Source of the DNA: Mycobacteriales bacterium
Lineage (GTDB): Bacteria; Actinomycetota; Actinomycetes; JAFAQI01
Reading direction: 5' to 3'
Assembly (NCBI GenBank): GCA_035550055.1
Contig: DASZRO010000081.1
Coordinates: 1 to 34,696, forward strand
DNA length: 34,696 nt
Program-made: the position numbers and the translations under genes
Shown: positions 4,881 through 7,442 of the stretch, piece after piece
Layout: every line of letters starts with the position of its first letter
Position numbering within the stretch: position 1 is the first letter of the stretch
The notes under the pieces: model-generated
Databases searched by the model: none
Seen by the model: only the letters and a program-made list of their open reading frames with translations
What the model was told of the DNA's origin: nothing

Positions 4881-5770
4881 CCACGCCGCCGCTGTCCGAC
4901 TCCGACGTCGTCGGCTACTGGCACGCCCTCGGCCTGCCCGGCATCGTCGATGCCCACGTGCACTTCATGCCGGAGTCCGTGATGCGCAAGGTGTGGGCGT
5001 ACTTCGACGGCAAGGGACCGCTGACCGGACGCGAGTGGCCGATCGAGTACCGGTGGCCCGAGACAGACCGGCTCGCCCACCTGCGCGGCATGGGGGTCCG
5101 TGCCTTCCCTTCGCTCGTGTATGCCCACAAGCCCGGCATGTCCGAGTGGCTGAACGGCTGGGCGGCGCAGTTCGCGGCCGCCAACCCGGACGTGATCGCG
5201 ACGGCCACGATGTTCCCCGAGCCGGGGGTCGCGGGCTATGTCGATGCGGCGCTGCGGGAGGGCGCGCAGCTGTTCAAGGTGCACGTGCAGGTGGGCGGCT
5301 TCGACCCGCGCGACGCCTTGCTGGACGAGGCCTGGGGGATGGTGGCCGACGCCGGCGTACCGGTGGTGGTGCACGCCGGCAGTGGCCCGACGGCGGGCGC
5401 CTTCACCGGTCCCGGTCCGATCGGCGAGGTACTCGCGCGCCATCCGACGCTGGCCCTCATCGCGGCGCACATGGGAATGCCGGAGTACGACGAGTTCCTG
5501 GCCTTGGCTGAGACCTATCCGAATGTGATGGTCGACACGACACTGTGCTTCACCGACTTCAGTGGCAGCGCCGCACTCGGTCCCGTCCTCGCGTTCCGGC
5601 TGGCTGCGCTGCAGCACAAAGTGCTGCTCGGATCTGACTTCCCCAACATCCCGCACCCGTTCGCTCACCAGATCGAGGCACTTGCCCGGCTCGACCTGGG
5701 CGATGACTGGATGCGTGCGGTTCTGTGGAACAACGCCGCCCGGTTGTTCGGCGTCTCAGGCGACGGCTGA
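4877..5770 (+). CDS. Amidohydrolase family protein (amidohydrolase_2 / ACMSD-like TIM barrel)
   Basis: This 297-residue metal-dependent hydrolase or decarboxylase is of the amidohydrolase_2 type. Metal-ligand motifs appear in the expected order: VDAHVHF near the N-terminus, VVVHAGSG in mid-protein, [11 protein letters not shown], and [11 protein letters not shown] providing the late Asp. The GTG start overlaps the smpB stop (GTGA at 4877-4880), implying coupled translation. The substrate is unknown; relatives include 2-amino-3-carboxymuconate semialdehyde decarboxylase and other carboxylic-acid lyases. Its 3' end overlaps the convergent HNH gene by 15 bp. Confidence 0.85.
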
Positions 5771-7060
5771 TTCCGGCGGGTCGGGGTCGCCGGTCAGCGG
5801 GTCCTGCTCCCTCGTCGTATAGGTGAAGCCGAGGAAGCTGGTCCAGGTCAGGGACCCGTCGGCATTGACGCCGACCTTCCACCGCTTCTTGGTCTTGAGC
5901 TGATGGTGCAGCTTGCACAGCGGCTGGAGGTTGTCGGGATTGGTGTCGCCGCCGCGGCCGTGCTCGAGTCGATGGTCGAGCTCGCACTGGTAGGCCGGGC
6001 GCGAGCAGCCGACCATCACGCATCGCGGCTGGGTGGCTTCGACCAGGTCGCGGAGCAGCTTCGAGGGTCGGTACTTGCGGCCGAGGTCGATGACGGTCCC
6101 GGTCAGCGGGTCGGTGACGAGTCGCCGCAAGGTCGCGTCGGCGGCGATCCGGCGTGCGGTCTCGGCGGTGATCGGGCCGTACCCGCTGAGCTCCGCCGGG
6201 TCGTCGTTGTCGCCGAGCAGCGTCGGGAGGCCGACCGTCACCAGCACCTGTGCGCGCAGCGCATTCTTGGCCGAGCGCCCGGCCGCTGCGGTGACGGCGG
6301 CGAAGAGCGCCGCGAAGCGCCGCACTCCGAGCGGGCGCTCGTCGCCGGCGCGCCGCATCGCGGCGGCTCGTTCGTCGAGCAGATCCATCATCTGGCGGAC
6401 CTGCTCCGCTTCGCCGTGCGCGGTGATCGTGGCGGTGTCGTCCTCGCCGGGAAGGAACTCGACGTCCGAGTCGGCTCGGGCCTTCTCGGCTCGCTCGGCC
6501 GCGCCCGCCGGGTCGATCGCGATGATCTCCTTGCGAGCGGCACGGGCGAGCTGGCTGGGCGTCCAGCCTCGCGCCACCGCGAGCGGGACGAGCTTGGTCT
6601 CGACGCGTTCCACCACCGCCGGGGAGCAGTTGCGCGTGACGCGATGCAGCGACCTGAGGTGGCCGAGCGTGAGATCGCCGCGATCGAGCGCGGTCCAGCT
6701 CGCCGGCAGGCATTCGTCGATGCGCTCGACGAGCTCGAGGTGCGCCATCGCCGTCGCGAAGGGAGTCGCCGTCGCCGCCGCGATCTCGTTCGCGGCGAGG
6801 ATGTGTTCGTCACCGAGGACGTACGGGTAGAACTCGCGAACTCCGCGGACGCAGTCGCTGGTCGCGATCATCTGCTGGGCTGTGGCCCAGGCGATCAGCT
6901 TGCCCCACAGTGCGTGCACCCGCACCGCCGACCGGGCATCGATCGGAGCCGCCCGGAGCGCGACCAGTCCGGCGGCCATCGACGCGCCGACCGGCATCTC
7001 CTCGAGCACCGCGATCCGGGCGTCCGACCTCGCGAAGGCTGAGGCCAGCGCCGCGTTCAT
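5756..7060 (-). CDS. DUF222 / 13E12-type HNH endonuclease, LexA-controlled
   Basis: The 434-residue protein has an N-terminal DUF222 (REP13E12) region and a C-terminal HNH nuclease motif: Cys-containing RCVMVGCSRPAYQCE, then LDHRLEHGRGG, then NPDNLQPLCKLHHQLKT. Proteins of this family are abundant in actinobacteria, often in mobile or variable regions, and some mycobacterial members (REP13E12) are known to carry LexA sites. The start is ATG at 7060, because the promoter and SOS box lie just upstream and ATG is six bases after the -10. No integrase, repeat or att-like sequence flanks it. The function is DNA cleavage by family inference; the target is unknown. Confidence 0.9.
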   Translation of the reverse strand: MNAALASAFARSDARIAVLEEMPVGASMAAGLVALRAAPIDARSAVRVHALWGKLIAWATAQQMIATSDCVRGVREFYPYVLGDEHILAANEIAAATATPFATAMAHLELVERIDECLPASWTALDRGDLTLGHLRSLHRVTRNCSPAVVERVETKLVPLAVARGWTPSQLARAARKEIIAIDPAGAAERAEKARADSDVEFLPGEDDTATITAHGEAEQVRQMMDLLDERAAAMRRAGDERPLGVRRFAALFAAVTAAAGRSAKNALRAQVLVTVGLPTLLGDNDDPAELSGYGPITAETARRIAADATLRRLVTDPLTGTVIDLGRKYRPSKLLRDLVEATQPRCVMVGCSRPAYQCELDHRLEHGRGGDTNPDNLQPLCKLHHQLKTKKRWKVGVNADGSLTWTSFLGFTYTTREQDPLTGDPDPPESAVA

Positions 7061-7063
7061 GGC

Positions 7064-7079
7064 TCGAACATATGTTCGA
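7064..7079. promoter_or_regulatory. LexA operator (SOS box)
   Basis: TCGAACATATGTTCGA is a perfect 16-bp palindrome and an exact match to the mycobacterial/actinobacterial SOS box TCGAAC-N4-GTTCGA. It covers the -10 of the HNH gene promoter and ends only four bases before the ATG, so bound LexA would block RNA polymerase directly. Confidence 0.92.
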
Positions 7080-7095
7080 ACAAGCCCGACGTCAA
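7067..7095 (-). promoter_or_regulatory. Promoter of the HNH gene (-35 and -10)
   Basis: On the minus strand, TTGACG (7095-7090) is followed by a 17-bp spacer and TATGTT (7072-7067), then six bases and the ATG at 7060. This is a near-ideal housekeeping promoter for a leaderless transcript. The LexA box overlaps the -10. Confidence 0.85.
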
Positions 7096-7154
7096 GGCCT
7101 GTTCTTCGTTGTGGATGAACGGTTCTCGAGTGCGCCTTGTGGACGACGGCTCGG

Positions 7155-7442
7155 CTAGGAACGCACCAGCCGGGCGATGGCTTCTGCGGCCTCACGCAGC
7201 TTGAGGTCGGCCTCGTCGCCCTCGGCGACCGCTTGGCGCACGCAGTGTCCAAGATGGTCCTCGAGCAGGCCGAGGGCCACGGCTTGCAGCGCCTTGGTCG
7301 CGGCCGACACCTGGGTGAGGACATCGATGCAGTACGCATCCTCGTCGACCATGCGGGCGATGCCCCGGACCTGGCCTTCGATCCGGCGCAGCCTCCGCTG
7401 ATAGGCGGCCTTGTCCGCTGAGTAGCCACGCGTCGTGGTCAT
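7155..7442 (-). CDS. CsoR-family metal-sensing transcriptional repressor
   Basis: This 95-residue all-helical regulator belongs to the CsoR/RcnR/FrmR family. It has RRLRRIEGQVRGIARMV at the N-terminus and the metal ligands Cys38 (DAYCIDV), His63 and Cys67 (DHLGHC). The Cys-His-Cys spacing (25 and 4) is that of Cu(I)-sensing M. tuberculosis CsoR, and the extra N-terminal His of nickel/cobalt RcnR is not evident. It is expected to be a tetramer that releases DNA on metal binding. The ATG at 7442 overlaps the permease stop in ATGA, so the two are translationally coupled. The likely operator is 8549-8563, in front of the permease, giving autoregulation. Confidence 0.9.
   Translation of the reverse strand: MTTTRGYSADKAAYQRRLRRIEGQVRGIARMVDEDAYCIDVLTQVSAATKALQAVALGLLEDHLGHCVRQAVAEGDEADLKLREAAEAIARLVRS

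Follow-up and report, generated by a model that had tools for sequence, protein, structure and literature searches.

Results

The HNH gene and its neighbors

The window, i.e. the whole stretch of DNA analyzed, comprises 34,696 nt and belongs to a genome of 3.54 Mb, referred to here as G000 (numbers such as C81, C88 and C103 denote contigs). Its genes are arranged in the order prfB-ftsE-ftsX-ctp-smpB, amidohydrolase, HNH gene, csoR, ArsP_1 permease and ssrA, where ftsE was identified from its place in this order and from the match to it in relatives. The features around the HNH gene are listed in Table 1.

Table 1. Features of the HNH locus with their positions in the window.
Feature	Start	End	Strand	Evidence
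smpB, conserved neighbor	4404	4880	+	Pfam SmpB, E 1.8e-62
Amidohydrolase gene, convergent; 3' end overlaps the HNH stop by 15 bp	4877	5770	+	Pfam Amidohydro_2, E 2.9e-37
DUF222-HNH endonuclease gene, product P0001 (434 aa)	5756	7060	-	Pfam PF02720, E 2.1e-15; PF01844, E 3.2e-4
ATG start codon, 6 nt 3' of the -10; predicted leaderless transcript	7058	7060	-	Direct reading and ORF translation
Predicted LexA operator TCGAACATATGTTCGA, perfect palindrome	7064	7079		Direct reading and genome motif search
-10 hexamer TATGTT, entirely within the operator	7067	7072	-	Direct reading; kept in 8/8 closest homologues
-35 hexamer TTGACG	7090	7095	-	Direct reading; -35-like hexamer at the same place in the closest homologues
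csoR-type gene for a metal-sensitive repressor, upstream of the HNH promoter; start approximate	7155	7442	-	Pfam Trns_repr_metal, E 1.1e-27
ArsP_1 permease gene	7439	8596	-	Pfam ArsP_1, E 8.4e-57
ssrA (tmRNA), landmark of the smpB-ssrA interval	8607	8966	+	Rfam RF00023, E 1.9e-55; ARAGORN

The DUF222 domain (PF02720) of P0001 scores 57.3 bits against a Pfam cut-off of 24.4. The protein was also classed as carrying a C-terminal HNH domain, although PF01844 scores 21.2 bits and hence marginally below its cut-off of 21.4; HNH families of the PHROG collection match as well, with a best E value of 4.7e-10. We take C347, C352, D362-H363, N377, C382 and H385-H386 to be the candidate zinc and H-N-H residues. 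AlphaFold, run on P0001 plus one homologue, gave a mean pLDDT of 50. Neither P0001 nor a seven-protein profile matched any PDB sequence; NCBIfam likewise had no match for P0001 or four other DUF222 proteins of G000, and PADLOC had none for the five G000 DUF222 proteins scanned. The reading frame of P0001, which ends at the stop codon at 5756, is open upstream as far as a GTG at 7429; the ATG at 7060, which no upstream stop codon fixes, is the start predicted from the position of the promoter and from the homologues.

The promoter and its palindrome

Positions 7096 to 7058, read on the minus strand, are CTTGACGTCGGGCTTGTTCGAACATATGTTCGAGCCATG. Direct reading between 7095 and 7058 confirmed what the first-pass annotation had described: TTGACG is followed after 17 bp by TATGTT and after another 6 bp by ATG, with a perfect palindrome over the -10. 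The 16-bp palindrome TCGAAC-N4-GTTCGA matches at 12/12 specified positions and spans the full -10 together with the 7 bp of spacer that precede it. Because an RNA start about 7 nt past the -10 would coincide with the ATG, the message of this gene should be leaderless. The earlier proposal, a promoter expected to give a leaderless message with its -10 covered by a putative LexA operator, is supported by the sequence.

With up to one mismatch allowed, the site at 7064-7079 is the single copy of the palindrome in the window. Up to two mismatches raised the number to 6, where shuffled sequence gave 2.1 on average. An occurrence of the palindrome by chance was ruled out by controls with reversed patterns and permuted palindromes. 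Control of the window gene by PafBC is not supported either. The corresponding signature, TGTC-N12-TAnnnT, does not fit the promoter, which has TTGAC at -16 instead; the tetramers at offset -21 and at the place fitting the -10 are AGGC and CGGG respectively, neither of which is TGTC.

The motif in the G000 genome

A search of the G000 genome for the 16-mer returned 9 perfect copies, compared with 1 for the reversed pattern; with one mismatch allowed the numbers were 35 and 13. RYAT is the centre of all 9 perfect sites when these are read on one of the two strands. Seven of them are located at DUF222 genes, and since G000 has 7 such genes, every one carries a perfect operator at its start. The two remaining sites head an ImuA' gene (NF058630, E 3.8e-44) and a HEPN_SAV_6107 gene (E 9.4e-35).

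The genome also encodes LexA (LexA_DNA_bind, E 3.6e-28) and RecA (RecA, E 3.3e-143). Three boxes with one mismatch lie 32-117 bp upstream of the candidate ATG of lexA, and one such box lies 197 bp upstream of the recA domain. Because the motif is perfect at the DUF222 genes and at imuA', and lexA and recA have copies that differ from it at one position, it is, as far as sequence tells, the SOS operator of this organism. The genes imuA', lexA and recA have the same operator motif as the window gene; the operators of lexA and recA contain one mismatch, whereas that of the window gene is perfect and contains the -10. This difference between perfect DUF222 operators and mismatched lexA and recA operators leads us to expect tight silencing and late induction of the DUF222 genes of G000.

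Conservation of the promoter among homologues

The window gene was compared with its 8 closest homologues, defined as matches of at least 39% identity with the N-terminus included. Two of these are in G000 and six in four other genera, and they share 39-51% identity with P0001. Five C-terminal pieces (G013:C148, G047:C13, G044:C88, G044:C34 and G040:C91) were left out, as was L232, which has 33% identity and a different promoter.

All nine promoters contain the perfect operator with TATGTT inside it. In each of them a -35-like hexamer begins exactly 16 nt 5' of the operator, so that the 17-bp spacing is kept; the hexamer is of the TTGAC type in seven cases and of the TTGAT and TGGAC types in one case each. 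An ATG or GTG follows 3 nt past the operator in 8/9 promoters and 4 nt past it in the ninth. The remaining upstream DNA has diverged among the nine.

Two other DUF222 genes of G000 are syntenic in the congeneric genome G043. The two genomes share the operator half-sites of these pairs but not the central four bases, and the proteins are 67% and 69% identical. The dN/dS values are about 0.33 and about 0.36, because of which the proteins of both pairs look to be under purifying selection.

As a separate observation, in G000:C88 (L006/L015) and G043:C84 (L245) a DUF222-HNH gene and a gene for a UvrD-family helicase (Pfam E 5.7e-95 in L015) diverge across one perfect operator of the predicted LexA type.

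DUF222 genes and operators across the class

PF02720 was detected in 32/40 genomes of the class, at 0-31 copies per genome. The RYAT-centred palindrome occurs in 23/40 genomes and its reversed control in 0/40. After merging two duplicate contexts, the initial 86 perfect sites were reduced to 84 distinct ones, of which one has a non-RYAT centre; 49/84 head a DUF222 frame. An HNH-like core was recognized by a regular expression in 60/65 full-length DUF222 frames and by a stricter expression in 25/94.

We then considered about 600 bp upstream of 141 DUF222 genes from 30 genomes, taken from the list of stronger matches. G013:C17 and G017:C57 were excluded for too little upstream DNA; rows holding a fragment or the second half of a split gene were also left out (G033:C251, G014:C105, several in G003 and one in G017). 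Among the matches listed, an operator with no more than one mismatch is present in 75/141 upstream regions, and in 39/141 it is perfect. The total includes three rows from G000 (C81, C88 and C103) that were added to the survey; the count at up to one mismatch is 72/138 without them and, among the matches listed, 68/134 without any G000 gene, with 32/134 perfect. Eighty permuted palindromes of the same composition, searched in the same 141 regions, gave a mean of 0.00 perfect matches and of 0.16 matches at up to one mismatch (largest number, 4). Paralogues within one genome are non-independent observations; counted by genome, an operator occurs at some DUF222 gene in 19/30 among the genes listed.

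In the same 600-bp regions, and again among the matches listed, 66/141 genes have no operator at up to one mismatch, and 11/30 genomes have none at any DUF222 gene listed. G016 has an operator at 0/11 genes examined, and the Arthrobacter homologue L023 has none within 9.4 kb. Judged by these counts, predicted LexA control is common in the DUF222-HNH family (about half of the genes examined), albeit not universal. Together with the homologues, the survey supports the suggestion of the first-pass annotation that a link with DNA damage may be conserved at many DUF222-HNH genes.

Several further observations came out of the survey. G016 (L047, L141-L148, L222, L224 and L226) contains long open DUF222 frames without an operator, 678-973 aa among the matches listed. 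Of the 35 perfect sites not linked to a DUF222 frame, 8 are at ImuA'-like genes and 3 at DnaB-like helicases; further ones occur at genes of the DUF6504, tRNA_edit and HEPN families. For each cluster one gene was verified with Pfam or NCBIfam, and the others were assigned by BLAST cluster. In three genomes (L054, L057 and L093) the palindrome is closely upstream of the gene for a DnaB-like replicative helicase (Pfam DnaB, E 8.5e-36 in L054), an unexpected SOS target. In L003 (1501-1516), L064 and L099 it is found at a HEPN_SAV_6107-type gene, which in several genomes is adjoined by a tRNA_edit-type gene. Seven unlinked palindromes (L059, L061, L079, L088, L090, L094 and L100) are situated within about 350 bp of contig ends in draft genomes, as if repeated DUF222 genes had broken the assembly.

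Three layouts of the switch

DUF222 promoters with an operator exhibit three recurrent layouts, of which the second and third overlap. The first is that of the window gene, in which a sigma-70 -35 is combined with a -10 inside the operator and a start codon just 3' of it. TTGA at -16 is present in 6/89 non-redundant promoters with an operator, and all 6 have TATGTT in the operator.

In the second layout the start codon is within the operator itself, as in 29 of the 49 operators linked to DUF222 frames. A gene-strand ATG is contained in 40 linked operators and is in frame with DUF222 in 29 of them (binomial P 4.7e-7 against an expectation of one third, with genes taken as independent); the window gene is one of the 11/40 without an in-frame start in the operator. 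The ATGTTCGA half of the operator then reads Met-Phe-Asp/Glu, and TAnnnT is located exactly 7 nt 5' of the in-operator ATG in 20/29 cases.

In the third layout, to which the window gene does not belong, a TAnnnT box ends at the operator edge (46/89 promoters), and in 20/89 TGTC-N12-TAnnnT abuts the operator. The corresponding control over all 256 tetramers gave a mean of 0.18 per tetramer, with CGTC as the runner-up at 4. Examples at DUF222-HNH genes are L001 (1460-1516), L006 (minus strand), L069, L115 and L122, among others. G000 itself has a tandem pair of WYL genes, the second of which encodes HTH_PafC (E 3.9e-43). Together with ImuA' and the type of LexA motif, this PafC-type gene points to an actinobacterial genome.

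The site is empty in relatives

The prfB-ftsE-ftsX-ctp-smpB...ssrA neighborhood is conserved among relatives; G047 was not informative for this site. The HNH gene is missing from the site in G043, which is of the same genus, and in G036, G013, G044 and G040. In G043 and G036 csoR directly follows smpB. In G013 the 3' end of the amidohydrolase gene adjoins csoR with no HNH gene between them; in G044 the amidohydrolase gene is followed by the permease gene with no HNH protein match in between, and in G040 smpB and ssrA are adjacent. The best match to P0001 anywhere in G043 has 32% identity. The extra piece in G000 amounts to about 1.4 kb, which corresponds to the gene plus its promoter.

No terminal repeats or target duplication were found at 5600-7300, and a mobile element with terminal repeats was rejected on these grounds. 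The locus does not qualify as an IS, an integrated phage or a plasmid. Plasmid and phage collections returned only weak partial matches (5/72,556 plasmid and 5/50,697 phage records), and viral contigs had no match. The site is empty in close relatives, namely the five genomes above, as in a homing-like gene. Within the taxonomic family, DUF222 copies vary from 0 to 10 per genome and 2/12 genomes have none.

The window gene is thus an accessory chromosomal gene that was probably acquired at this place as a single gene; losses in five lineages could give the same pattern but would be the less simple account. The first-pass annotation had noted no mobile-element flanks and had taken this to suggest that the gene serves a resident SOS function or derives from an old element. 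The observation holds in the limited sense that terminal repeats and a target duplication are missing; the conclusion drawn from it is not supported, since five relatives, one of them congeneric, lack the gene at this site.

In G040:C78 (L237) a different DUF222-HNH gene without an operator (1459-2772) is located just past ssrA (994-1350). The smpB-ssrA region thus holds a DUF222 gene on opposite sides of ssrA in G000 and G040.

Discussion

We consider it very probable that the site upstream of the window gene is a LexA operator that covers the -10 and the start of a leaderless sigma-70-type promoter, and that the DUF222-HNH gene behind it is released by DNA damage. As long as the DNA is intact, a LexA dimer on 7064-7079 would block RNA polymerase and the gene would be silent. 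Upon damage, RecA filaments on single-stranded DNA would trigger the self-cleavage of LexA; with the repressor gone, transcription would start at the ATG or within a base or two of it and the nuclease would be made. We infer LexA binding, damage induction, the transcription start and the nuclease activity of the window gene from its sequence. Because the operators are perfect, the product seems to be one that must be held off. Our best guess for the role of the enzyme is a cleavage of DNA from which only a damaged cell would benefit, or which only such a cell would tolerate. Because its copy number is patchy, the gene appears to behave as an accessory piece that is gained and lost and not as a part of core repair.

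What the cell gains from such a nuclease can be pictured in different ways. One possibility, which we treat as open to considerable doubt, is a lethal enzyme under SOS control that degrades the chromosomal DNA of badly damaged cells and causes their programmed death, with the perfect operator restraining a toxic product. The contrast between the seven perfect DUF222 operators of G000 and the mismatched ones of lexA and recA fits this idea, and seven copies in one genome are hard to reconcile with one repair step; on the other hand, the five DUF222 proteins scanned match no PADLOC model, and the main text of the paper on the HNH nuclease MSMEG_1275 does not mention DUF222 (PMC9416677). Also possible, but no better than tentative, is a self-spreading cassette of one gene, in which a homing-like endonuclease gene moves with its own SOS promoter and cuts while recombination is active. 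The occupied smpB-csoR site in G000 only, the variable copy number within the family and an operator that accompanies the gene at 39-51% protein identity at different places all speak for such a cassette, and the REP13E12 repeats are described as gene-conversion hotspots of M. tuberculosis in the available part of PMC13061034. Against it stand the missing terminal repeats and target duplication, the near absence from plasmid, phage and viral sequences and the synteny of 2/7 G000 DUF222 genes with G043.

An ordinary SOS repair nuclease seems rather unlikely to us. It could act, for example, in mismatch repair, a role proposed for the LexA-controlled 13E12 HNH proteins of M. tuberculosis (PMC4181829, in the text available). 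The regulator shared with imuA' and recA, the divergent UvrD-family helicase gene at another G000 DUF222 gene and the purifying selection in two other family members are in line with repair, but 0-31 copies per genome in the class, and none in two family genomes, are unlike core repair genes. Finally, the palindrome could be bound not by LexA but by another repressor of the ArsR or CsoR type. csoR lies directly upstream of the HNH promoter, and the available text of PMC8151990 points out a resemblance between the SOS box of mycobacteria and the ArsR motif of E. coli. The same motif is nevertheless present at lexA, recA and imuA', and the csoR-permease contigs of G043 (C48), G036 (C5) and G013 (C91) are devoid of the RYAT palindrome; we regard this explanation as very improbable.

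Taking a LexA-controlled nuclease as the preferred reading, a wider picture can be sketched, albeit as a speculation that we would not yet favor over its negation. The DUF222-HNH proteins would be class-wide accessory nucleases gated by damage, many of them spreading gene by gene, each along with an SOS switch of its own, and many with the start codon inside the operator. A subset would have two keys, activation by PafBC, which responds to single-stranded DNA, and cleavage of LexA; it would fire only when both signals are present, to kill the cell or to copy itself. The third layout, if real, would join a damage-activated promoter to a damage-released repressor and would provide a natural example of joint control of a promoter by PafBC and LexA. 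It agrees with a published damage promoter, tTGTCRgtg - 8 nt - TannnT (available text of PMC5656591), a type that is now attributed to PafBC (PMC11804915, in the portion available); the window gene, in contrast, uses a TTGAC -35. The combination in itself is not without precedent, since the accessible text of PMC8151990 refers to a locus near lexA that has SOS boxes as well as a PafBC motif. In a search largely confined to freely accessible papers, we found none on the fusion of operator and start codon and none on a joint action of PafBC and LexA at DUF222 genes.

The switch recurs at about half of the genes examined and would link the response to DNA damage with a gene family of unassigned purpose. 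If damage gates about half of the family, its purpose should be testable after DNA damage and not in normal growth.

Comparison with known systems

We take DUF222 and 13E12 to be one family. The accessible part of PMC10589994 implies the same, and a 2026 preprint, in its available text, still describes the REP13E12 regions as lacking a defined biological function (PMC13061034).

The HNH nuclease MSMEG_1275 of M. smegmatis resembles the window gene in its HNH type and in its stress-linked expression, which for the window gene is a prediction; its reported regulator is an ArsR-family protein (PMC9416677, available text). In a paper on LexA of Streptomyces venezuelae the word HNH is absent (PMC9380542).

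The mycobacterial precedent for REP13E12 genes as SOS targets, to which the first-pass annotation had referred, is real. According to the text available from these studies, the 13E12-family genes Rv0515, Rv1702c, Rv3074 and Rv3776 belong to the LexA regulon of M. tuberculosis (PMC5005354), the 28 genes of this regulon include 13E12 HNH genes, with LexA sites from ChIP-seq at 12 newly assigned members (PMC4181829), and mitomycin C turns on five putative HNH endonucleases in a RecA-dependent manner (PMC8151990). The refined LexA motif of M. tuberculosis, given as MKWMTCGAAMRYWTGTTCGA in the accessible part of PMC4181829, agrees with the RYAT centre of all 9 perfect G000 sites. LexA control of the 13E12 family is thus already published for M. 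tuberculosis, and the window gene adds a member. Predicted membership in the LexA regulon is what it has in common with the 13E12 HNH genes, a likeness at the level of the family. Unlike the M. tuberculosis precedent, 7/7 DUF222 genes in G000 carry a perfect operator.
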